Positions 2 to 15,189 of a stretch of 22,396 nucleotides of DNA are shown one piece after another (position 1 is the first letter of the stretch; every line of letters begins with the position of its first letter). The DNA comes from a virus. Position numbers and translations under genes: made by a program. Below the pieces are notes generated by a model. That model searched no databases. It saw only the letters and a program-made list of their open reading frames with translations, and was not told where the DNA came from. The stretch is taken from IMG/VR virus record IMGVR_UViG_3300027973_000236, positions 1 to 22,396 of that record. One strand, given 5' to 3'.

Positions 2-2731
2 GCCGAAAAGGGAAAAATAGAAATGCCAAAACTCCCGAGAATGGGATTTTTGGATTGGATTAAAAACTTTATTGGTAATATTATTCTTGGATATTTTGCA
101 GTAAGACTTGTAGATCAACTACCAAAATTAAAGGGAGTAATTTCTTTTATTGGAAAGGCATCTGATTTTGTTCTGGACATTGGCGGAAAACTTTTAGATG
201 GATTGGTAACATTTATTGATTGGGGATACAAAGCATATGATGCTACCAGAGGATTCATGAAGAATCTATTTGGAGAAGGTGGCGTAAAACAATTTGATCA
301 ACTTTCTGGACTATTAAACAAATTTTTAAATCTTGCCATTATTGTTGGAATGATAGCAGCAAGTGGTAATGGATTTGGTGGTCGTGGGGGTGGGGGTGGA
401 TCAAGATTTAAACCAGGACAGGGGGGAAGACCAAGAGTAACAACAAGTGGAGGAAGAGGATTAAATAGACCTGATATAAGAAATCCTTTTAGAGAAAGAC
501 CAACAATAACTACAGGAAGAAGTGGTGGATTTCGTCTTCCCCAATTACCTGGAACAGGTGCAAAAGTTACAGGTGGTGGGAAAGGATTTCGTCTTCCCTC
601 AGGAGCATCAAAAATTTTAGGCGTTGCTGGCAAATCTCTTGGTTATATTGCTTTAATACCGTTAGTTTTTGATGTTGTCGGTTCTATAAAAGACAGAAAT
701 TATAAGGATGCTGCAAGAACCATTATATCTGGTGGTTTGAGCATGGCAGTATTTAATGCAGTTTTAGGTGCCTCGGGTGCCGCTGCTGTTGCTGAAGCAC
801 TTTTTAGTGGTGGAACCTTAACCCCAGTGGCAATTGCAACTTTATTGGGTGGAGCAGCATTAGCTACTGGAGCTTCTGCTGGCACCAGTTATGCATCTGA
901 TGAATTTCTCAAAAAACTTGGATTGGAAGATAAACCCAAACGCATGGCAGGCGGCGGTACAGCAAAGGGCCAAAAAAGAAGAATTCTGAATACAAAGAAA
1001 GGAAAATATAAAAGAAAACTTGCTCCAAGAAAACCTGGACAAATTCAAATGCAACCAGGTGCTGATGTTGGTGGCGAAGATAAATTATTTGGATTATTTG
1101 ACAATCCACTTAAAACGGCTAAAAATGCTATTGATATGATGAATCCATTTAAGGTGATTGAAAATACTGGAAAAGAACTTGGAAAGAGTGACTATTTTGG
1201 ACCAATTCTTGCAATTACTTCCAAAATTCTTTTGGGACAAAAACCAAGTCAAAAAGATTATGAGAATGTTGGTCTTGGAATTAATCTTTTGGTTTCAAAG
1301 GGATTGAATGAAGGGCAATTAAAGGGGGGACTTGCTGCTGCATTTGCGGAAGGTGGATTTGTTGATCCAAAAGCATTAGATGCTATAAGTCAAGGTGGTG
1401 ATATTACAAATTGGGTTGCAAAAGCATTTAGAGAATCAACAGAAAGTAATACACAAGAAACTTTAAGAGATATACAAGACAATTTGAGATTAAAAAAAGG
1501 AGAACCACCTACACCCACCCCAGGCACCGGGGGTCCTGGTGGAATTGGTGGCGAATATTCTCCAGAAGGACTTCAAGGAGACATATACAAGTATCTTCTT
1601 TCAAAGGGTATGGATGATACACACGCTTTGGGTCTTATGGCAAATATATCCAGAGAAAGTGGATTTAGACCTGGTGTTTTGGAAGAAGGTGGTGGAGGTG
1701 GAGTTGGATTGTGGCAGTATACAAGTGAACCACGCAGATCTAATTTCTTAAAGGCAGTTCCAGATTATAAAACAAATTGGAAAGCTCAAATTGATTATGC
1801 ATTAAAAGAACCTGGTGAACCAGGGCAACAATATCTTTCTACAAAATTTTCTTCTCCACAAGAAGCAGCAGATTGGTTTATGCGAAAATGGGAAAGGCCT
1901 GATGAAAAAATTCAAAATGATAAAGGGCCCAAAATACATGCACAATATCTTTCTGGATTGCAGAAATATAGAACTCAAAAAGGATACAATATTCCTGGCA
2001 GTATGAATATTGCTGGAATGGATAAAGGTGGAGTTGGAGGTTCTGTTGCAGAATATATTACCGGAGATCCAAATACTCCATTTGGCAGATTTGATAGAGC
2101 AGGACATGGTACACCCGGAAATTATCATGATCATATTGCATTTAAAGATAGAAATACTGCAGTAAGAGCATATAATTTTTTCAAATCAAAAGGCATACAA
2201 GTAACAGAATTTAAAGGATTTGATTCTGTTGGTGGCCATGCCAATGGTTCACTTCATTACTCTGGATTGGCATTTGATGTTCCTGGAGCACAGTGGGGAG
2301 GTTCTGGTGCTATAGGATCAAGAGATTATGCTGGGTCTGGAAAAGTCAGAAAGACTTTAAAAGAATTTCTTGGAGGTTCTTCCAGTCCAACAATTGCAAA
2401 AGCATATGCAAAAGGTGGAGAAACCCTTGGAGGCCCCCACCTTGCAATGTTGGGAGAAAAGGGAAGAGAGATAGTTGTTGATGCTGATAGTTCTGGTCCA
2501 GCAAGAGACATGTTGCTTGCTATCAACCAAGCAAAAGATCACAAAGGAGTAATGAAAGCAATTCAACAATATGCTCCTTATGATGTAATGTCACCACAAA
2601 CAATTGTTATGCCATCATCTGGAGGTGAAAGTGATTATGATTCTGAAATGGCTGGTGGCAGTGTTATGATGATGGATGGTGGTGGGGAGGATTCTTATGA
2701 TCCATTTGATGCCCTGGAAATGGGTGGTTAA
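2..2731 (+). CDS. Large tail structural protein with tail lysozyme domain and tape-measure-like C-terminus (5' end outside window)
   Basis: The frame has no stop up to the left edge. The first ATG is at 23, but no convincing ribosome site precedes it, so the true start is probably upstream. Residues here count from that ATG (902 aa). The N-terminus (9-60) is amphipathic to hydrophobic, 118-190 is Gly/Arg-rich low complexity, and hydrophobic stretches fall in 198-290. About 510-650 match the phage tail lysozyme family: an N-I-S-R-E-S-G-F motif with likely catalytic Glu545, then G-L-W-Q-Y at 562-566. About 680-790 form a second module with S-x-H-x-x-G-x-A-x-D at 743-752, the zinc-binding signature of M15-type peptidases, and H-D-H at 702-704. 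The end (about 800-830, including L-G-E-K-G-R-E-I-V) resembles tape-measure C-termini. Probable role: virion-borne cell-wall degradation at the tail centre. The next gene follows after 23 bases. Domain calls are from motif memory; the exact virion position is inferred. Confidence 0.8.
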   Translation, partial: AEKGKIEMPKLPRMGFLDWIKNFIGNIILGYFAVRLVDQLPKLKGVISFIGKASDFVLDIGGKLLDGLVTFIDWGYKAYDATRGFMKNLFGEGGVKQFDQLSGLLNKFLNLAIIVGMIAASGNGFGGRGGGGGSRFKPGQGGRPRVTTSGGRGLNRPDIRNPFRERPTITTGRSGGFRLPQLPGTGAKVTGGGKGFRLPSGASKILGVAGKSLGYIALIPLVFDVVGSIKDRNYKDAARTIISGGLSMAVFNAVLGASGAAAVAEALFSGGTLTPVAIATLLGGAALATGASAGTSYASDEFLKKLGLEDKPKRMAGGGTAKGQKRRILNTKKGKYKRKLAPRKPGQIQMQPGADVGGEDKLFGLFDNPLKTAKNAIDMMNPFKVIENTGKELGKSDYFGPILAITSKILLGQKPSQKDYENVGLGINLLVSKGLNEGQLKGGLAAAFAEGGFVDPKALDAISQGGDITNWVAKAFRESTESNTQETLRDIQDNLRLKKGEPPTPTPGTGGPGGIGGEYSPEGLQGDIYKYLLSKGMDDTHALGLMANISRESGFRPGVLEEGGGGGVGLWQYTSEPRRSNFLKAVPDYKTNWKAQIDYALKEPGEPGQQYLSTKFSSPQEAADWFMRKWERPDEKIQNDKGPKIHAQYLSGLQKYRTQKGYNIPGSMNIAGMDKGGVGGSVAEYITGDPNTPFGRFDRAGHGTPGNYHDHIAFKDRNTAVRAYNFFKSKGIQVTEFKGFDSVGGHANGSLHYSGLAFDVPGAQWGGSGAIGSRDYAGSGKVRKTLKEFLGGSSSPTIAKAYAKGGETLGGPHLAMLGEKGREIVVDADSSGPARDMLLAINQAKDHKGVMKAIQQYAPYDVMSPQTIVMPSSGGESDYDSEMAGGSVMMMDGGGEDSYDPFDALEMGG

Positions 2732-2739
2732 ATAGAAAT

Positions 2740-2746
2740 AGGAGGT
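2740..2746 (+). promoter_or_regulatory. Strong Shine-Dalgarno site of the gp27-like gene
   Basis: The full AGGAGGT match to the 16S anti-SD lies 8 bases before the ATG at 2755. It is the best ribosome site in the window, which fixes that start and suggests high translation of the hub protein. Confidence 0.75.
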
Positions 2747-2754
2747 AATATTAA

Positions 2755-4098
2755 ATGGCAAAACAGATAATCTCAAAAAGTGCAGAACCGTCTTTTATTG
2801 AGAGACTGGATATTGTATCAAATAAAGATCAGAGCAAGACTGTAAGCATTACTGGCGGAACTATTCGTTTGATGTATTATGAAAGTATCATGCAAGATAC
2901 TATAAAAGCAACTGTAACATTTACTGATTCTGGAAATGCAATTGATAAGAAAACTGTTCTTGAAGGATTGCCTCTTGTTGGACAAGAAAAAGTTTATGTA
3001 AAATTTAAAGATAATAATGATGAACAAATAGATCTAACTTTATATGTAAATAAGGTTACTCCTTTATCTGATGATACAACAAAATCCATGGTTCAATTGG
3101 ATCTTGTATCTAAGGAGTTTATTATGAATGAGAAGGTAAGATTAAACACAAGATTTGATGGAAAAATATCAGATCACATTAAAAAAATTCTATCGGATGC
3201 CAATTATATTAATACTCAAAAGAAACTTGATATTGAAGAAACTTCTAATACCTATAATTTCATTGGTAATAATAAAAAACCATACTATGCAATGAATTGG
3301 TTATCAAAAAAAGCAGTTCCACAATTACCTGGAGCAGATGGAAGTACTGCGGGTTATTTTTTCTTTGAAACTTCAGAAGGATTTAAATTTAAATCAATTG
3401 ATTCTTTGTTAAGTCAAGAAAAGAAAAAATCAATTCTCTATAACCAATCTCCCGATTCCAGAGGCGATAATCTTCCTGCAGGATATGATGCAAAAGCCTT
3501 AGAATATTCAAAGGATAATCGTGTTGATGTTAAAGAAAAATTAAAAATGGGAGCATTCTCAACCCGTACAATTTTATTTGACCCATTCAATTGTTACTAT
3601 GAAGTTATCACGCCAAATGCAAAGGAAAAAGAAAAAGATTTGAAACTTGGTGGAAAAGAACTTCCTGTATTAAATCCTGAATTTAATAAAGAAGGAAAAA
3701 ATAAAGATTTTTCAAGAACAACATATATGTTAATTGACAAGGGATCACTTCCTTCTGGAGATACTTCTCAGCAAATAGAAAAATCAAAGGACCAAAATTT
3801 TGATCCAAAGAAGATCTTAAATCAATCAATTATGAGGTATAATCAGTTATATTCTATTAAGACTACGATTACAATAGCCGGTGACTTTTCTCTACATGCT
3901 GGAGATGCTATCTTTGTAGATGCTCCAGAACTTTCTTCGGAAGAGTCCAAAGACGTAAGTAAGGAAAATGGAGGTCTATATATTATAGCAGATTTATGTC
4001 ACTATATTTCTACAAAAGAAACTTATACTAAACTTAATTTGGTAAGAGATTCATTTGGTAGAATTGGTAATCACACATCTGGGAAAATGCCATTATGA
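2755..4098 (+). CDS. Baseplate hub-like structural protein (gp27-like candidate)
   Basis: A 447-residue protein without signal peptide or membrane segment. The start is set by an AGGAGGT site 8 bases upstream. The N-terminal half is beta-rich, with alternating hydrophobic strands around 20-130 and a segment near 115-140 with S-K-E-F-I-M-N-E-K, followed by helix-like stretches at 135-150 and 175-190. This pattern, its length (T4 gp27 is somewhat shorter, about 390 aa) and its position just upstream of a gp5-like gene suggest the trimeric hub ring to which gp5 docks in T4. Sequence identity to T4 gp27 is not obvious by eye, so the assignment rests mainly on context; 'virion structural protein' is the safe call. 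The stop overlaps the next start in an ATGA arrangement (4095-4098), implying translational coupling. Confidence 0.7.
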   Translation: MAKQIISKSAEPSFIERLDIVSNKDQSKTVSITGGTIRLMYYESIMQDTIKATVTFTDSGNAIDKKTVLEGLPLVGQEKVYVKFKDNNDEQIDLTLYVNKVTPLSDDTTKSMVQLDLVSKEFIMNEKVRLNTRFDGKISDHIKKILSDANYINTQKKLDIEETSNTYNFIGNNKKPYYAMNWLSKKAVPQLPGADGSTAGYFFFETSEGFKFKSIDSLLSQEKKKSILYNQSPDSRGDNLPAGYDAKALEYSKDNRVDVKEKLKMGAFSTRTILFDPFNCYYEVITPNAKEKEKDLKLGGKELPVLNPEFNKEGKNKDFSRTTYMLIDKGSLPSGDTSQQIEKSKDQNFDPKKILNQSIMRYNQLYSIKTTITIAGDFSLHAGDAIFVDAPELSSEESKDVSKENGGLYIIADLCHYISTKETYTKLNLVRDSFGRIGNHTSGKMPL

Positions 4099-4313
4099 GT
4101 AACAGGACTCTTCAACAACACATAGATGATGATAGAAATGAACTGGACAATTCAGATACAAATAGCCAAAGACGCCGCCATTTGGAAGATGAATTAACTT
4201 CATTAGAAAAATATCAAAGAAATCATCCAGAAGATAATCACGATCCATCATCATTAGAATTATTTTGTGACAATAACCCAGCAGCGCCAGAATGTAGAAT
4301 TTATGAAAATTGA
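4095..4313 (+). CDS. Small acidic hydrophilic protein of unknown function
   Basis: A 72-residue protein starting inside the stop of the hub-like gene (ATGA overlap) and ending 6 bases before the gp5-like start, so it is clearly part of the same operon. It is very polar, rich in Asp, Glu, Asn and Arg; residues 5-45 have helical, possibly coiled-coil character, and two cysteines lie near the C-terminus. No domain is recognised. Its place between the two hub genes suggests a hub assembly factor or minor structural component; this is inference. The tight coupling on both sides makes it a real gene rather than a chance frame. Confidence 0.75.
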   Translation: MSNRTLQQHIDDDRNELDNSDTNSQRRRHLEDELTSLEKYQRNHPEDNHDPSSLELFCDNNPAAPECRIYEN

Positions 4314-4319
4314 TAAGTA

Positions 4320-6143
4320 ATGGAAGGAACTGCATTATTTAATTCAGGATTTTTAGGATCATCATTTAATTGGTGGGTTGGTCAGATTGCTGACGATTCC
4401 ACCTGGCGTGATAATATGCTGCCAGGAAAACATCAAGGTAAAGATGAGGTTCCTGGTTGGGGTCGTAGATATAAAGTCAGAATTATTGGTCTTCACGATA
4501 AAGAAGAGGAAACTATTCCCTCAGATCAACTTCCTTGGGCACAAGTCATGTACCCCATCACTGCTGGTGGTGGTCAGACAAATGCAGGTGAAACTTCAAG
4601 TTTAAGACAAGGTAATTTTGTATTTGGATTTTTCCTTGATGGTCAGGATCAACAAGTTCCTGTAATTATGGGAGTACTTGGAAACAATTCTCAGACTGCA
4701 CTTGCAACAAAGATTGGAACAACAAAACAAAACTTTGCTGCAACAAGTGGATATGCAGAAGGAAAAGAACCTCCACAACAACAAGCAAAACCAAAAGTTC
4801 CTGATACTGGATTAACCACAAAAAAACCAACAACTCCAGAACAATCTGCAGAATGTGCTCCTGCCCCTCCTGGCGTTAAAGTTAATGAATTTGGTCTTCG
4901 TCCAGATGTGTCTTTAAGTAAGGCACAATTTGCAGACCAACAAAGTGGATTGCGAGAAGCAGAAGCAAGAGGATTAACAGGAACAAATAAAGCTGCATTT
5001 GTTCAACAAGCAGTTGCTAAAGGAATTAAAGATCGTTGCAAGTTTGCAAATTCTCCACAATCTGGATCAGCACCTGGAGCAACAATTGAACAACCAGATA
5101 ATCCACACATCATAACTGCGGCTGATGTAAAAAGGCAAGAGTATTATACTAAAAAAATTGCATTAGTCAATCCTTGTGATATGACGGGATCAGCATTAAA
5201 GGCAATCAAGACAGTTATTGAAAATCTTACAAAAGATATTAATAAGTATTTGGCAGCAGCAAAAAGTTATATTGATGCAGTTTCAAGTACAGTATCATCT
5301 CTTAAAGATATAATTGCAAATGCTGCTTGTCAAATTGCAAAATATATGAAGATTATTTTTGATAAGATCTTTGAGTATGTTTTGAAGAAAATCAATAAGG
5401 CACTAGCACCAACTATTGATTTATTGTTTCCAAATCAAAGATATAAATTTAGTGATCTAAAAGAAATTATTAATAAAATTCTCAATGCAGTATACAGTAA
5501 AATTACTAATAATCTTTGTGGACAAATCCAAGGATTTTTAGATAAAGTTCTTGATAAAAGTACGCCAAGAGAAGTTGATCCAGATGAAGAAAATGATACT
5601 GCTGTAACTGTTCCAACAAATGGTACTACCACAGTTACTCCTATTTGTTCTGTAGAGGAATTGAGTGGAAGTATTATTGGGCAAAATATGAATGTAATGA
5701 ATAAATCCGTTGATGATATTCTAGATAATATTAATAGTTTTCTCTCAGATATTCAGTCTGAATTGTCAGAAATTTCTGGTGCAATTAATAATGTTGGATC
5801 CATAATTGGAGGAATTAGTGGAAGTATTACTTCGGCACTGAGTTTTACAAATATTATCTTAAATATATTTCCAAGTGATTTGAAACCAAATTGTGCAGTA
5901 TCAGATCAATATTCCATAGCTACTGGTGGCGGTGCGACTGAACAACCACAATTACCAAGACCTGCTGAAGTAGACGAAGCAGCGAAAAATCCCACACTAT
6001 CAACTGCAACAGCAGCAGTGCCATTTAAAGAACCAACAAAATCAACGCCTGATGTTGATTTTAGTGACAAAGCATCTACAGCTGCAGAAAGAACACAGGT
6101 CGGTACAAATCAAACTCCTGGGTTTACCAGGATTGGTGGATAA
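4320..6143 (+). CDS. gp5: gp5-like baseplate hub protein: OB-fold without lysozyme domain
   Basis: A 607-residue protein. Residues about 15-125 match the OB-fold of T4 gp5: W-W-V-G-Q-I at 18-23, G-R-R-Y-K-V-R-I-I-G-L-H at 48-59, L-P-W-A-Q-V at 71-76 and G-F-F-L-D-G-Q at 103-109, ending in V-I-M-G-V-L-G. In T4 this fold sits on gp27 at the tip of the tail tube. T4 gp5 continues with a lysozyme domain and a C-terminal beta-helix needle. Neither is visible here: a Pro/Gln/Thr-rich linker (about 140-260) leads to helix-rich segments (about 262-410 and 442-517) and a Pro/Thr-rich tail. Muralytic activity may come from the lysozyme domain in the protein ending at 2731, and the needle from the protein at 10336-11004. 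The ribosome site is weak. The stop codon lies inside a late promoter motif for the next gene. Confidence 0.85.
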   Translation: MEGTALFNSGFLGSSFNWWVGQIADDSTWRDNMLPGKHQGKDEVPGWGRRYKVRIIGLHDKEEETIPSDQLPWAQVMYPITAGGGQTNAGETSSLRQGNFVFGFFLDGQDQQVPVIMGVLGNNSQTALATKIGTTKQNFAATSGYAEGKEPPQQQAKPKVPDTGLTTKKPTTPEQSAECAPAPPGVKVNEFGLRPDVSLSKAQFADQQSGLREAEARGLTGTNKAAFVQQAVAKGIKDRCKFANSPQSGSAPGATIEQPDNPHIITAADVKRQEYYTKKIALVNPCDMTGSALKAIKTVIENLTKDINKYLAAAKSYIDAVSSTVSSLKDIIANAACQIAKYMKIIFDKIFEYVLKKINKALAPTIDLLFPNQRYKFSDLKEIINKILNAVYSKITNNLCGQIQGFLDKVLDKSTPREVDPDEENDTAVTVPTNGTTTVTPICSVEELSGSIIGQNMNVMNKSVDDILDNINSFLSDIQSELSEISGAINNVGSIIGGISGSITSALSFTNIILNIFPSDLKPNCAVSDQYSIATGGGATEQPQLPRPAEVDEAAKNPTLSTATAAVPFKEPTKSTPDVDFSDKASTAAERTQVGTNQTPGFTRIGG

Positions 6144-6146
6144 ATA
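6139..6146 (+). promoter_or_regulatory. T4-type late promoter motif GATAAATA
   Basis: The octamer fits the NATAAATA late motif known from T4-like phages, recognised by the gp55-type sigma factor with the sliding clamp. It overlaps the TAA stop of the gp5-like gene. Initiation 6-8 bases downstream would leave a leader of about 12-15 bases before the ATG at 6166, plausible for a late transcript of the large adhesin gene. No -35 element is expected for this class. Confidence 0.6.
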
Positions 6147-6165
6147 TCATTAACAAGAAAAGGAT

Positions 6166-9100
6166 ATGCCGACTAATTTATTTGGACCAAGATCTAAAGA
6201 TGATATTAGAGTAGGATATATTTCTACTGATACTGGATATGTTACGGGGGTAACTATTTGTGAGGCAAATTCTTATGCTCAACAAAATCCAGGAACAACA
6301 TTCATTTTTAGAAATGGTAATAATAATATTAAGTATTTGAATATTAATGAGGTTAATAAACTAACTCCAGATAGTCTTGTTTCCACTGCAAATAGTTGTG
6401 GTGGGCCTCAAACAGTTGTGGAATGTGGACCACCAATTATTAACTTTTCTGGTGGCGGTGGTGTTGGAGCACTTGGAAATGCTATTGTTGGTATTGACGG
6501 CGCAATACTTGCAGTAGATGTTATAGAAGGTGGATTTGGATATCAGTACGAACCTTTTGTGAATGCAAAAGATAATTGCCAAATCGGAAATGGTGCAGTA
6601 CTCACTGCTGTTCTTGGAGAAACCACCGAGACGCTAGAAGAAACCTATGATAGTGAAGCAGACTTTGAAGAGTATGAAATATGCCCAGATACGACTGTTG
6701 GATATGGTAGAAATTGGGGCCCGAATGGAGAAGATCTGGGTCCTTGGGAACCAAGAACGTATACGGAAGTAAGTCAAGATCCAATTCGAAAAGAAATTGA
6801 AGAATATCAAAAAGCACTTACAGTAGGAAAAAATCCATTTTGGACGACAAGAAAAAATACACCAAAAAGAATTACATCATTAAGTCAATCATTTAGAAAG
6901 TATGATGTTACCGATGAACCATACTTGAAGAATAGAAGAGCAGAAGGGGTAAAAGATCCCGTTGCATGGAATGAATTTATGAATTCCTATACAATCTCTC
7001 CTGTTCCCCCATCAAATGTTTCTGGAAGTGATTTTGCAGGAAAAGTATTTACGTTTGAATGGGAAGATGAGTTTCCTCGTGATGGAGAATATGTTTTTAG
7101 AGGACTGTGCGATAATAAAGCAACACTATATCTTGATGGATTAAAATTCTTTGATCTTGGAGATTTTAATGGAGCCGTAAGTCCACAAAGAAAAACTTTG
7201 CAGGCAGGAGTTCATAAAATTAGAGTTGATTTGGAAAATTATCCCATTTATGAAACTAAAGTAATACAACCAAAAGTACCACCAAAAAAACTTCCTCCAG
7301 CACCGCCTCCAGAATTGATTGGTATGCTGCGGTTTTTTACAGCCGACTTTAGTGGTCCAGCATTAACAACTCATTTTTATACATCAGATCCAAATGATGA
7401 ATTTATTCAGGAAAATGGATTTGTTCTTGAGGGATTGGCATTTAAATTATTTAAAAGTTCTGCCAATGTTCCTGGAACTGTAGATGTTTATCGTTTATTT
7501 AAGGGAATAATAGGAGATCATTTCTTCACAACATCTGGAGCAGAAAAAGGTTCAGCAGTACTGGATCAGTACATTTATGAGGGAGTTGTTGGAAAGGCAT
7601 ATTCGGAGCCAGGACCAGATAGAATTGAAGTAGTACGTTATTTTAGACCATCTACAGGAGAGCATTTTTATGTTACAACTATAGAAGATTCGCAACGTCC
7701 TGGTTGGTTAGCAGGTCTTGGATATGTAAGGGAGGGAACAGCATTTTATGCTCCAACTGATCCAACTGCCACACCAACTACTGAACCAGTTGCAAAACCA
7801 ACATCAAATCCAATTCAAAATGCAAATGTCTTTAATACAGTAGATTATATTGATAAAGCAACTCGTCGTTTGTGGAGAACCAATCCAACAGCAACTGCAA
7901 CATCAAGCATTATTGATCGTTATGGAATATGTCCTTTTGATACAACAACTGCAGAAGCACAAAACCAAAGTTATGCAGGAACTCATACAATTATATGGAA
8001 CAATATCAATTTTCCAATAGATGGTGATTATAGAATTCAAATTGCGGTTGATGATAATGTAACTCTTTATATTGGCGATACTCAAATTAGAAAACAAGGA
8101 TTTTTTCCAGGCACATCGACAGGTACTGGAGATCTTAATGAAATCTATCAATTTAAGGCAGGAAATTATACAATTCGTGCAGAACTAGAACAAATTCCAG
8201 GTTCTGCTTTGGCTAGAGGAAATCCAATGGTTCTTGCAGTCAATATTGAAACAACATACAGCACTCAACAAGTTGTTTCTCCAAAATCTTGGAATGATAA
8301 TCCAATGGGAATATCAATTACAATTGATGCTCCTCCCCCAACTGTTCCAAAAGAAATCCCACCAGTTCAAACAGGAAGATGTCCTCCCAGTCCGATTTGG
8401 TCTACAAGATTTCCTGGTGCATCACAAGCATGGTATCCTGTTCGTTTTAATGTTCCAAATACTTGGAGCAAGTTTATGAATAGATATGCACTTTCGCCTG
8501 TCCCCCCACTAGACACTCCAGGAAGTGATCAAACCGAAGTTAACTTTTTAAATGATTGGAATGTTGAAATACCATATGCAGGATATTATGGTGTAAAAGG
8601 AACTGGAGATAATAGGGGAAGATTGTTGATTGATGACATAGAAGTAGCACAATTTGATGGATTTAACGTAGTCAACCCAAAATTAAAAAAAGTTTATCTT
8701 ACTAAAGGTAATCATAAAATAACAACTGAAATTTTTAATTATTCAATTTTAGCAACATCTATAGTTAATAAAAAAATCTTTAGTACAAAAGATTGGATTG
8801 TAACATCCCCATCCCAACCAAAAACAGTTGATGTTAGTTTTAATATCTCTGTTGCAGGTGGGTTTGCAAATAAATTTGTCATTGATGATTTGGGGATATC
8901 TGTATCAAAAGTAAATGATAGAGGCCAAAGTAGTAAAAATGAAAACATTACAAAAAATGTTGAATATGGTAAAGTATATAAGGTAAAACTTTCTACTAGT
9001 AATCAAGGACAAATAAAATTAAGAACTCAGGGAAATAATGTATTACAGGCAGAAGATGATAGAGATTTTAATTGGAAAGATATTCAATGTACCACTAATA

Positions 9101-10308
9101 TTGGAAGATTTTATGATTTAAATGGCGATGAATGTAAATTTGTTGTCGATAATGCCGGAGTATTCCCATCATTTAGCAGTGGTACAGTAAAGGATGAAGT
9201 GACTTATATTGGACCAACACCAATTGCATCTTATCCTCAACCAATTACTGGGAGAACTGAATTCATTTCGCCTGCATTTAGCAATATCTTAACACCAACA
9301 GATGAAATTCAAGGAAAAACTTGGATTATGAGATGGAGTAATGTTGACTTTCCTGAAGACGGACAGTATATATTAAAGGCGGAAGCAGATGATTTGGCAA
9401 TTATTAGAATTGATGGCGTTGAAGTGGGAAGGGCTAAAGTAAATGAGGGGCAACGAACTACCAATTTTAATGCAACTAAAGGAAAACGAACAGTGGAGTT
9501 TGAGTTATCAAACATCTCCATACCAAATACATCATTCCAACAAAATCCAGTTGTTGTTTCCGTAGAGATCAGTAAAAATATAAATGTAACAACAAAAGCA
9601 AATATTCCGTGGACAACAAATCCAGTTGGAGTATCTGCAATTTTAATTCCTCCCCCTTGTCCCAAATTGGTTAGAGGTAGAGGTGTTGTAGATAAAGTAA
9701 TTATAGAAGATCCAGGTGTTGGATACATACCACCAGTACCTGGTGGCAATGGATATCCTGTTATTCTTAAGCTTGCAGAAGTTTTTGTAGAAAATTCTGG
9801 AATCAATTATAATTGTGGGGTGGATCAACTTAAAATTATTCCAGATAATGGGGCAAAATTAAGTTATACTTGCAATGCTTTTGGAGTTATTGATGCGGTA
9901 AGTGTTGATAGTCCCGGTACTCCTTTTAATAGTTATCCAGAAATCACTCTTGTATCAGAAACTGGAGTGAATGCATTATTCAGACCAGTATTTGAAGTTG
10001 TAAGAGATCCATTGGATCCTACAATATCTCCAAATAATATCATTCAGGTTACTGATTTGGTTGGCCTCAAGCAAACTGGATATGTAGATGGAAGACCATA
10101 TTATGGTGCTGTCTTCTATGAAAATGGACTTAAATATGCAGGATATTATAAGACAATTGGAGCACCAATTCGAATTTATGATACTCTTCAAGAAAGTATC
10201 ACTGCGAAGGTCACCACACCTGCAAGTGCAATCGAAAGATCTGGTACTGATGTTACCAATAATGATCCAAGACTTAATATTCCAGGTACGCCAAATACCA
10301 CTACATAG
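6166..10308 (+). CDS. Giant tail adhesin-like protein with four PA14-like modules and a DUF5648-like repeat domain
   Basis: A 1380-residue structural protein. Four related beta-rich modules lie at about 264-361, 580-720, 744-864 and 1045-1145. Each has a 'FP.DG.Y' strand followed by a D-D/N-x-x-x-L-x-I-D-G-like segment, as in PA14 carbohydrate-binding domains. Modules 1 and 3 also share a near-identical lead-in, F-M-N-x-Y-x-x-S-P-V-P-P followed by G-S-D. Residues 384-532 hold three repeats with an H-F-Y/F-T/V-T signature and an E-G-x-A-F-like ending, resembling DUF5648 repeats. The C-terminal part (about 1175-1275) contains several short G-x-G-Y/P-G motif units. No catalytic domain is seen. 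Likely role: side fibre or baseplate appendage binding cyanobacterial surface glycans. A late promoter sits just upstream; AAGGA is unusually close to the ATG. Confidence 0.8.
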   Translation: MPTNLFGPRSKDDIRVGYISTDTGYVTGVTICEANSYAQQNPGTTFIFRNGNNNIKYLNINEVNKLTPDSLVSTANSCGGPQTVVECGPPIINFSGGGGVGALGNAIVGIDGAILAVDVIEGGFGYQYEPFVNAKDNCQIGNGAVLTAVLGETTETLEETYDSEADFEEYEICPDTTVGYGRNWGPNGEDLGPWEPRTYTEVSQDPIRKEIEEYQKALTVGKNPFWTTRKNTPKRITSLSQSFRKYDVTDEPYLKNRRAEGVKDPVAWNEFMNSYTISPVPPSNVSGSDFAGKVFTFEWEDEFPRDGEYVFRGLCDNKATLYLDGLKFFDLGDFNGAVSPQRKTLQAGVHKIRVDLENYPIYETKVIQPKVPPKKLPPAPPPELIGMLRFFTADFSGPALTTHFYTSDPNDEFIQENGFVLEGLAFKLFKSSANVPGTVDVYRLFKGIIGDHFFTTSGAEKGSAVLDQYIYEGVVGKAYSEPGPDRIEVVRYFRPSTGEHFYVTTIEDSQRPGWLAGLGYVREGTAFYAPTDPTATPTTEPVAKPTSNPIQNANVFNTVDYIDKATRRLWRTNPTATATSSIIDRYGICPFDTTTAEAQNQSYAGTHTIIWNNINFPIDGDYRIQIAVDDNVTLYIGDTQIRKQGFFPGTSTGTGDLNEIYQFKAGNYTIRAELEQIPGSALARGNPMVLAVNIETTYSTQQVVSPKSWNDNPMGISITIDAPPPTVPKEIPPVQTGRCPPSPIWSTRFPGASQAWYPVRFNVPNTWSKFMNRYALSPVPPLDTPGSDQTEVNFLNDWNVEIPYAGYYGVKGTGDNRGRLLIDDIEVAQFDGFNVVNPKLKKVYLTKGNHKITTEIFNYSILATSIVNKKIFSTKDWIVTSPSQPKTVDVSFNISVAGGFANKFVIDDLGISVSKVNDRGQSSKNENITKNVEYGKVYKVKLSTSNQGQIKLRTQGNNVLQAEDDRDFNWKDIQCTTNIGRFYDLNGDECKFVVDNAGVFPSFSSGTVKDEVTYIGPTPIASYPQPITGRTEFISPAFSNILTPTDEIQGKTWIMRWSNVDFPEDGQYILKAEADDLAIIRIDGVEVGRAKVNEGQRTTNFNATKGKRTVEFELSNISIPNTSFQQNPVVVSVEISKNINVTTKANIPWTTNPVGVSAILIPPPCPKLVRGRGVVDKVIIEDPGVGYIPPVPGGNGYPVILKLAEVFVENSGINYNCGVDQLKIIPDNGAKLSYTCNAFGVIDAVSVDSPGTPFNSYPEITLVSETGVNALFRPVFEVVRDPLDPTISPNNIIQVTDLVGLKQTGYVDGRPYYGAVFYENGLKYAGYYKTIGAPIRIYDTLQESITAKVTTPASAIERSGTDVTNNDPRLNIPGTPNTTT

Positions 10309-10335
10309 TAATACATTAGATATATTTTTTTACTA

Positions 10336-11004
10336 ATGGCTACATCACAAAATCGTAATAATTCAAAACTGGGTACTCCCACAACATTGACTAAAGGTGG
10401 TGCTGCTGGTGGTGTTTCAAAAACAAACACTGCTAAACAAAATTATACTGCAAGAAGCGTTGGTAATGATCATGGGTCACTTACTTTTGGTGCTATTCAC
10501 AAACAAGGTGATGTGACATCAGATGTAATGCTTCAGGCAACTGATGGAAGGCATGGCATTATTTTAGATAAAGACGGTTCTCGTAAAGGATGTACACAAA
10601 TCACTGCTCCTGGTAGAATTACTATTGATGCAGGTGAGGATAAAAAGGAAGCAGAAGATACATTGATGATTCATTCTTGGAATGGAAATATTTGTATCGT
10701 TGCAAGTAATGGAAAACTTAGATTGCAAGGAACTGATATTGAATTAGTTGCTGTTGGTGAGGGTGGTTCCAAAGGAAACATTCGCATGAAAGCAAGTGAA
10801 ACAATTGAACTTGATGGGAAAAAGATCATTGGCAATGCAAAAACTTTGTGTAAAATGGTTTCCAGTGGTAAAGTAGAAATGGCAGCAAATACTTGTATGA
10901 ATATATACGGATCATTAATCAGAAATACTACCGATGCCGTTGCAAATAAAGATGGTAAGAATGGTGGTCAACTTCTTCAAAATTTACAAAATCTAACAAG
11001 TTAA
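10336..11004 (+). CDS. Beta-helix spike-like structural protein, possible detached gp5 C-terminal needle
   Basis: A 222-residue protein. Residues about 1-45 are polar and probably extended. From about 50 on it is built of short strands with regular turns: an I-T-A-P-G-R-I-T-I-D-A-G strand pair, then units such as I-R-M-K-A-S-E-T-I-E-L-D-G-K-K and V-E-M-A-A-N-T-C. This periodic alternation of charged and small residues is what the gp5 C-terminal and VgrG-type triple-stranded beta-helices look like. The gp5-like protein at 4320-6143 lacks such a region, so this gene may supply the spike tip as a separate trimer. That is inference from sequence texture and context. No clear ribosome site precedes the ATG; the 27-base gap before it is T-rich. 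The next gene starts 7 bases after its stop. Confidence 0.7.
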   Translation: MATSQNRNNSKLGTPTTLTKGGAAGGVSKTNTAKQNYTARSVGNDHGSLTFGAIHKQGDVTSDVMLQATDGRHGIILDKDGSRKGCTQITAPGRITIDAGEDKKEAEDTLMIHSWNGNICIVASNGKLRLQGTDIELVAVGEGGSKGNIRMKASETIELDGKKIIGNAKTLCKMVSSGKVEMAANTCMNIYGSLIRNTTDAVANKDGKNGGQLLQNLQNLTS

Positions 11005-14415: not shown

Positions 14416-14578
14416 ACTTTGGTATTGCGAATCAATGAAACTATGGCGTTGGACTTTAACTGATGATTCTCGCACAATCATCAAACAAGAATCTGGACAA
14501 CAACCAGACTTAAGAGATGCAATGAATGATGTAGCAACTACCGTGGAATATATGTTGGAAACCCGACAAATTCCATGA
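14405..14578 (+). CDS. 57-residue protein of unknown function
   Basis: The ATG at 14405 (MNIKLWYCESMK) is preferred over an in-frame ATG at 14366, because it overlaps the preceding gene by only 11 bases and because the extra residues would be translated from inside that gene. The protein begins with an aromatic-rich beta hairpin-like part (L-W-Y, L-W-R-W-T-L) and ends in a helix (R-D-A-M-N-D-V-A-T-T-V-E-Y-M-L-E). The stop overlaps the next start (ATGA at 14575-14578), so it is translationally coupled to the Mom-like gene and may belong to the same function. No family is recognised. Confidence 0.6.
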   Translation: MNIKLWYCESMKLWRWTLTDDSRTIIKQESGQQPDLRDAMNDVATTVEYMLETRQIP

Positions 14579-15189
14579 GTAAAAGTGCTTACTTTATAGA
14601 TAAAGTTGGTAAGAATGAAATCAAAGATTTACTTTATACCTATCACTATTTAAAAGATGAATCCAAAGATTTTAAATCTGGTTTCAACTATGGACTTTTT
14701 AGATCCACATTCGAATGCCCTCTTAATATTGGCGGGTGTCTTGGTACTTGCGTTTTTACTAATCTCCCAGTTCCAGAAATTGCCGTAAGTGCATTTGGTC
14801 TGGAGAGACATCAACAAGATGGACTTTATGAACTCTCTAGACTTTGCATTCATCCAGACCTTCAAAAAGAAGAATATAATATTACATCCTGGTTTGTAAG
14901 TCGTTGTATCAAGAGGTTTAGAAAAGATGCCCCAGTTCGTGCTATTCTTAGTTATGCTGACTCTAATCACCACACTGGAGTTATATACAGAGCTTGTAAT
15001 TTTAAGTATTACGGGTTAACCGCACCAAAGAAAGATTTTTACTATGCAGATGGCACAAAACATTCACGAGGTAGTGTTCGCGGCATTGATGGTCAGTGGT
15101 GCAATCGCAGCCGTAAACATCGCTATCTTATGGTATTCGATAAAACGCTGAACCTCTTGTGGAAAGAAGAAAAGTATGGTAATATATAA
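14575..15189 (+). CDS. Mom-like GNAT-fold protein, putative DNA adenine-modification enzyme
   Basis: A 204-residue protein. The central and C-terminal parts resemble the phage Mu Mom family: Y-E-L-S-R-L-C-I-H-P-D at 85-95, a helix with S-W-F-V-S-R-C-I-K-R at 105-114, then A-I-L-S-Y-A-D-S at 123-130, H-T-G-V-I-Y-R-A-C-N-F at 133-143 and Y-Y-G at 145-147. Mom belongs to a divergent GNAT-like acyltransferase family and converts adenine in DNA to N6-carbamoylmethyladenine, protecting phage DNA from restriction. The motif order and the length (Mu Mom is about 240 aa) agree. The C-terminus (155-185) is basic and aromatic, fitting DNA contact. It is coupled to the preceding small gene (ATGA) and followed by a strong terminator. 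The alternative is a general N-acetyltransferase. The family call is from memory of motifs; the chemistry in this phage is unknown. Confidence 0.75.
   Translation: MSKSAYFIDKVGKNEIKDLLYTYHYLKDESKDFKSGFNYGLFRSTFECPLNIGGCLGTCVFTNLPVPEIAVSAFGLERHQQDGLYELSRLCIHPDLQKEEYNITSWFVSRCIKRFRKDAPVRAILSYADSNHHTGVIYRACNFKYYGLTAPKKDFYYADGTKHSRGSVRGIDGQWCNRSRKHRYLMVFDKTLNLLWKEEKYGNI

Follow-up and report, generated by a model that had tools for sequence, protein, structure and literature searches.

Marine T4-like cyanophages are abundant, and in the literature searched we found neither a baseplate structure for any of them nor an explicit description of a split gp5. In VgrG (T6SS) and in the AFP, PVC and other eCIS spikes, OB part and needle are joined in one chain, and a PAAR protein caps the needle. 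The spike of T4 combines an OB plug with a triple-stranded beta-helix needle and the PAAR tip gp5.4. Plug and needle derive from one gene, with a T4-type lysozyme between the two domains, and become separate chains only upon cleavage of gp5 at Ser351/Ala352, the mature device consisting of nine chains, (gp27-gp5*-gp5C)3 (PMC3004832). In the Anabaena myophage A-1(L), OB domain and beta-strand needle also form one chain (gp25), and the hydrolases reside on another baseplate protein, the hub gp15 (PMC10966104). The Kyanoviridae phage S-CREM2 encodes a gp27-slot protein (gp210), a gp5 (gp211) and a separate needle (gp212, labelled there as a baseplate wedge); its virions yielded 25, 40 and 14 unique peptides from these three proteins, respectively (PMC10665884). 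The virions of S-SM1 contain gp5 and T4-GC15, the family of its gp27-slot protein (PMC3037559).

Composition of the locus

The window, by which we mean the whole stretch of 22,396 bases analysed, comes from a T4-like marine cyanophage whose closest phage matches are the Kyanoviridae SynMITS9220M01, Bellamy and S-SM2. Its genes follow the order P1 (PF18013 lysozyme), P2 (gp27 slot), CP12, P3 (gp5 OB), P4 (PA14), P5, P6, P7 and others, an order identical in the annotations of S-SM2 and Bellamy. We read the stretch, with a probability of about three in four, as a T4-type central hub and spike divided into separate polypeptides. Unlike in T4, needle, plug and C-terminal hub half would each have a gene of their own, the hydrolase being part of yet another protein, as in A-1(L). 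The features are the following:

23..2731, + strand: P1, peptidoglycan-hydrolase protein in the slot before gp27 (phrog_35997), open at the 5' end of the window
1580..1918, + strand: lysozyme domain of P1 (PF18013, E 8.9e-21)
2246..2278, + strand: M15/VanY-like motif GSLHYSGLAFD of P1 (by eye)
2755..4098, + strand: P2, hub protein occupying the gp27 slot (T4-GC15, phrog_350; synteny)
4320..6143, + strand: P3, predicted N-terminal half of gp5, with OB domain and helical stretches (607 aa)
4503..4706, + strand: OB domain of P3 (PF06714, Gp5_OB; residues 62-129)
5181..5861, + strand: stretches of P3 predicted to be helical (residues 288-412 and 445-514; moderate to low confidence)
6166..10308, + strand: P4, predicted to be the C-terminal half of gp5 on a separate chain, carrying inserted PA14 and DUF5648 domains (PHROG, Pfam, hhalign)
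6388..6675, + strand: N-terminal gp5-derived block of P4 (hhalign with the C-terminal half of P-TIM68 gp5)
7021..7242, + strand: PA14 domain 1 of P4 (E 1.4e-6, under the curated cut-off)
7360..7752, + strand: DUF5648 domain of P4 (E 5e-22)
7960..8214, + strand: PA14 domain 2 of P4 (E 1.1e-8, above the cut-off)
9292..9480, + strand: PA14 domain 3 of P4, partial match (E 6.2e-6, under the cut-off)
9706..10233, + strand: C-terminal gp5-derived block of P4 (hhalign with the C-terminal half of P-TIM68 gp5)
10336..11004, + strand: P5, putative separately encoded beta-helix needle (family profiles, structure comparison, synteny)
10609..10890, + strand: region of P5 read as beta-helix (~residues 92-185; pLDDT mostly 67-92)
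10921..11001, + strand: C-terminal tail of P5 (residues 196-222; modelled at low pLDDT with a single short helix)

An earlier sequence-only reading had distributed the functions of gp5 over three proteins and proposed a spike made of separate chains. This is true in outline, plug, lysozyme and needle being on different genes, but it missed a fourth piece, P4, and hub and spike take up three genes instead of two. A host metabolic gene, the Calvin-cycle regulator CP12 (4095-4313; PF02672, E 4.7e-14), lies within the hub operon, flanked by the gp27-slot gene and gp5, an arrangement found in many other cyanophages. A search of NCBIfam returned 0 matches.

Hub, hydrolase and the two parts of gp5

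P2 is gp27-like by position alone, its comparison with T4 gp27 being not significant (hhalign 2.9 versus 0.0 for the reversed control) and a search of the PDB giving nothing significant. In P1, residues 520-632 match PF18013 (Phage_lysozyme2) with 75 bits against a curated cut-off of 28.2, which bears out the lysozyme domain previously read in the protein ending at 2731; this family differs from that of the T4-gp5 lysozyme (PF00959). Tape-measure PHROGs also match P1, mainly across the lysozyme stretch, and P1 is possibly a protein of the tape-measure type. Its M15/VanY-like motif has no Pfam match in the window, and VanY (E 1.6e-10) and M15_3 (E 1e-4, barely under the cut-off) are found in the same-slot proteins of S-SCSM1 and S-SM1. 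Since P1 and S-SCSM1_214 have a common N-terminal part (E 2.5e-22), hydrolase modules appear to be exchanged on a shared carrier. In S-SM1, S-RIM14 and ACG-2014f the gene preceding the gp27 slot contains T4-type PF00959, and in S-SCSM1 VanY; PF18013 occurs there, or one gene earlier, in B23, S-RIM14 and the window, and the protein preceding the slot in S-SM2, P-TIM68 and SynMITS9220M01 has no Pfam hydrolase match.

The lysozyme was thus not split off in this phage: it lies off gp5 in all cyanomyoviruses examined, so that its loss from gp5 is lineage-wide and not particular to the window's phage. PF18013 is kept inside gp5 in the Caulobacter phage Cr30, where a single chain (5935-8040) comprises OB domain, PF18013 lysozyme and needle region and ends in an apparent M15 peptidase (by eye). 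In the slot of P1, S-CREM2 encodes gp208 and gp209, both detected in virions (PMC10665884). These two "endolysins" (484-9555) add up to ~3,020 aa and the tail measures 418 nm; at ~1.5 angstrom per residue their lengths would be compatible with a two-protein tape measure.

P3 matches Gp5_OB (PF06714) at E 1.6e-5, barely above the curated cut-off, as do all 41 of its 41 aligned relatives. Residues 26-101 of T4 gp5 also match it directly, and the gp5 PHROG phrog_1922 matches P3 and, weakly, P4. No family match to a lysozyme or a beta-helix was found in P3, and its structure model, poor with a mean pLDDT of 52.7, is helical and then, beyond residue 515, mostly without regular structure. A beta-helix hidden at the C-terminus is absent from both model and profiles. 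Since its homology is with the N-terminal part of gp5, P3 is, as far as sequence tells, a gp5 relative without the C-terminal beta-helix, which agrees with the original description of an OB-fold protein lacking both other parts. Helical segments of about 150 and 75 residues had been described as gained in their place; helices are predicted, of ~125 (288-412) and ~70 residues (445-514), and are extra with respect to T4, but the replacement is doubtful because fused cyanophage gp5s also have long helix-like stretches after the OB domain (by eye). A comparison of these with the helices of P3 did not rise above the reversed control. We found no locus in which P5 is fused to P3.

P-TIM68 has gp5 as a single chain, whose C-terminal half is matched by the N-terminal block of P4 with an hhalign probability of 99.8 (E 2e-27) and by the C-terminal block of P4 with one of 100 (E 1e-67), against 0.1-0.4 for unrelated neighbours, although these values are inflated because the P-TIM68 profile, built by iterated search, already contained P4 sequences. 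An independent profile, made from the C-terminus of gp5 of ACG-2014e, also took in some P4 sequences. Profiles of single P4 ends find the gp5 of S-B05, S-SSM7, S-PRM1, P-SSM2 and S-CAM7, all absent from those profiles, at E 1e-10 to 1e-38. As the C-terminal half of one-chain gp5s (P-TIM68, S-SCSM1, B23 and others) has its homologues in the two ends of P4, these comparisons indicate that gp5 itself has been cut and that P3 and P4 together make up gp5, a link between P4 and gp5 that we did not find elsewhere. P-TIM68, S-SCSM1 and B23 resemble the window in their OB-helical hub and in the P5 needle gene directly downstream; unlike the window, they keep the C-terminal half within a one-chain gp5 and have no separate P4 gene. 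The two blocks of the window's P4 are separated by ~1,000 residues, in which the DUF5648 domain and three PA14 matches lie. Among loci with P3, P4 and P5, the length of P4 ranges from 405 aa (SynMITS9220M01) to 1,993 aa. PA14 domains are typically sugar-binding. P4 with these insertions probably surrounds the base of the spike as a collar or adhesin, and its PA14 domains may bind host surface sugars.

The window is a single uncultured contig, in which an assembly or sequencing artefact could have produced such a split. This explanation is refuted, because 65 distinct loci have P4 after P3 (41 of them with P5 next, some P3-P4 loci stopping inside P4 or P5) and the identical split exists in the finished genomes of S-SM2, Bellamy and SynMITS9220M01.

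The needle and its tip

P5 looks like a needle-type beta-helix, by family profiles and by its predicted structure. The VgrG needle domain DUF2345 matches 29 of 35 P5 relatives (best E 1.2e-7), the window copy itself having no Pfam match. Folded as a monomer (pLDDT 64.6), the AlphaFold model is extended, with hardly any intra-chain strands across residues 91-185 and a pLDDT of ~84-92 over about residues 110-180, which is what a single chain of an intertwined trimer should look like. Foldseek gave PVC and AFP spikes as best structural matches (9qgm, probability 0.98, E 0.048; 6rbk, 0.75), and VIA-align superposed 151 residues on VgrG 8gra_G (Z 7.2, rmsd 4.4). Such Z values are middling and insufficient alone, and the needle call depends on DUF2345 and gene position pointing the same way, in line with the beta-helix-like protein recognized at first; both programs hardly reach the C-terminal tail. 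In hhalign comparisons with T4 gp5C and the B-type needle, P5 did not score usefully above controls; T4 gp5C gave no match (0.3), and the fused S-SM1 needle a weak one of 39% (reversed control 1.0, shuffled 0.3).

Beta-helix profiles resemble those of fibres as well, and P5 and P4 might instead be peripheral baseplate or fibre proteins, with the true needle elsewhere in the genome or absent. T4 gp34 is indeed among the lower structural matches of P5, haemagglutinin repeats occur in 18 of the 35 P5 family members, P4 carries PA14 domains, and P6-P8 and fibre genes come next. We nevertheless consider this unlikely: eCIS and VgrG spikes outrank gp34, DUF2345 is the commonest family match among P5 relatives, and P5 lies directly 3' of gp5 or P4 in more than 12 named phages, with no second P5 match in the seven P5-type genomes searched whole. 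Moreover, the gene at the position of P5 in S-CREM2, gp212, is a T4-type gp5C, matching residues 384-519 of T4 gp5 (E 0.006) and another T4-like spike (E 5e-4).

If P5 is the needle, its tip differs from that of T4. A search for PAAR (PF05488) at E 0.01 gave no match in any of the 14 P5-type records, which comprise a 184-kb contig and 13 named phages, whereas 9 of 11 non-P5 records have a match, 3 of these 9 under the curated cut-off. The association with needle type (Fisher test, P 2.7e-5) amounts to one evolutionary event, because all P5-type phages belong to a single clade. Divergent PAAR proteins could have escaped detection, and the window covers just part of a genome. P5 proteins also extend ~25-60 residues beyond the beta-helix, where T4-type needles stop (by eye), non-P5 cyanophage needles ending on the last strand (..ILLN, ..IFLN, ..IYLN) and T4 with ..RIDIG (by eye). 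From the missing PAAR and this run-on tail we infer that P5's own tail closes the spike tip in place of PAAR, although P6 or P7 could be the cap instead. A PAAR-less tip is a testable prediction, and PAAR is commonly taken to be standard in contractile machines. The tails following the beta-helix of P5-type needles at four loci (L169, L170, L167, L175) look hydrophobic or amphipathic and are perhaps membrane-active. P6 and P7 (11012-12495), paralogues with a common C-terminal module (KNFDIPHP..) that come after P5 in its closer relatives, are possibly tip or fibre parts.

Order of events and proposed assembly

The needle is fused to gp5 in T4, S-SM1, S-RIM14 and Syn9. It is separate and T4-gp5C-like in P-HM2, whose annotation already shows two "gp5" genes, and in S-CREM2; separate and B-type in ACG-2014e/j, S-CAM1 and S-CAM3; and separate and P5-type in P-SSM2, S-SSM7, S-PRM1, S-CAM7, S-SKS1, ACG-2014f, S-B05, P-TIM68, S-SCSM1, B23 and the window's clade. 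On a tree built from the N-terminal part of gp5, separation of the needle and splitting of the hub require one change each, and the hub-cut clade (100/100) is nested within the P5 clade (96/96). The branch uniting all separate-needle phages is moderately supported (86/91), and the direction of change rests on the fused T4, Cr30 and Los1, because the root is weak. On this gp5 tree, the central spike is shown to have come apart in order, the needle first and the hub later. Among the cyanomyoviruses examined, a separate needle is widespread, and only the window's clade has gp5 divided into P3 and P4 as well.

It could be argued that this is an ordinary cyanophage arrangement, in which gene fission does what cleavage does in T4, with nothing mechanistically new. 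Such a reading, to which we give considerable weight while placing it below even odds, overlaps with ours on protein identities and differs on whether the split matters. T4 gp5 is cleaved anyway (PMC3004832), and most cyanomyovirus lineages sampled have a separate needle gene; by contrast, the P3|P4 cut is not at the T4 maturation site, the insertions of P4 vary in length, and the P5-type genomes have no detected PAAR. Separate spike chains have a precedent in both T4, where gp5 is cleaved from its needle, and S-CREM2, with its separate needle in virions; unlike the window, the latter has a one-chain gp5, a T4-gp5C-type needle and a PAAR match.

In the divided T4-type spike that we favour, the OB plug of P3 would sit beneath a trimeric P2 hub, P4, the former C-terminal half of gp5, would surround the spike base as collar or adhesin, and P5 would trimerise into a beta-helix needle; peptidoglycan cutting by P1 would follow the opening of the envelope by the needle. 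The presence of all chains together at the tail tip, and their stoichiometry, are presumed. More tentatively, the spike of the P5 clade may have been re-engineered, with a PAAR-less needle formed by P5's own trimer and tipped by its own C-terminal tail, non-covalently docked to the OB plug, and with P4 as a PA14 collar reading host surface sugars next to it; we would hold this version to be less probable than its opposite. Corrected annotations are suggested for S-CREM2 gp212, listed as baseplate wedge, and for P5, listed as hypothetical, since both look like needles. Further along the window, a Mom-like DNA modification protein (14575-15189; PF25680, E 5.8e-19) adjoins genes for tRNA-Leu and tRNA-Thr.
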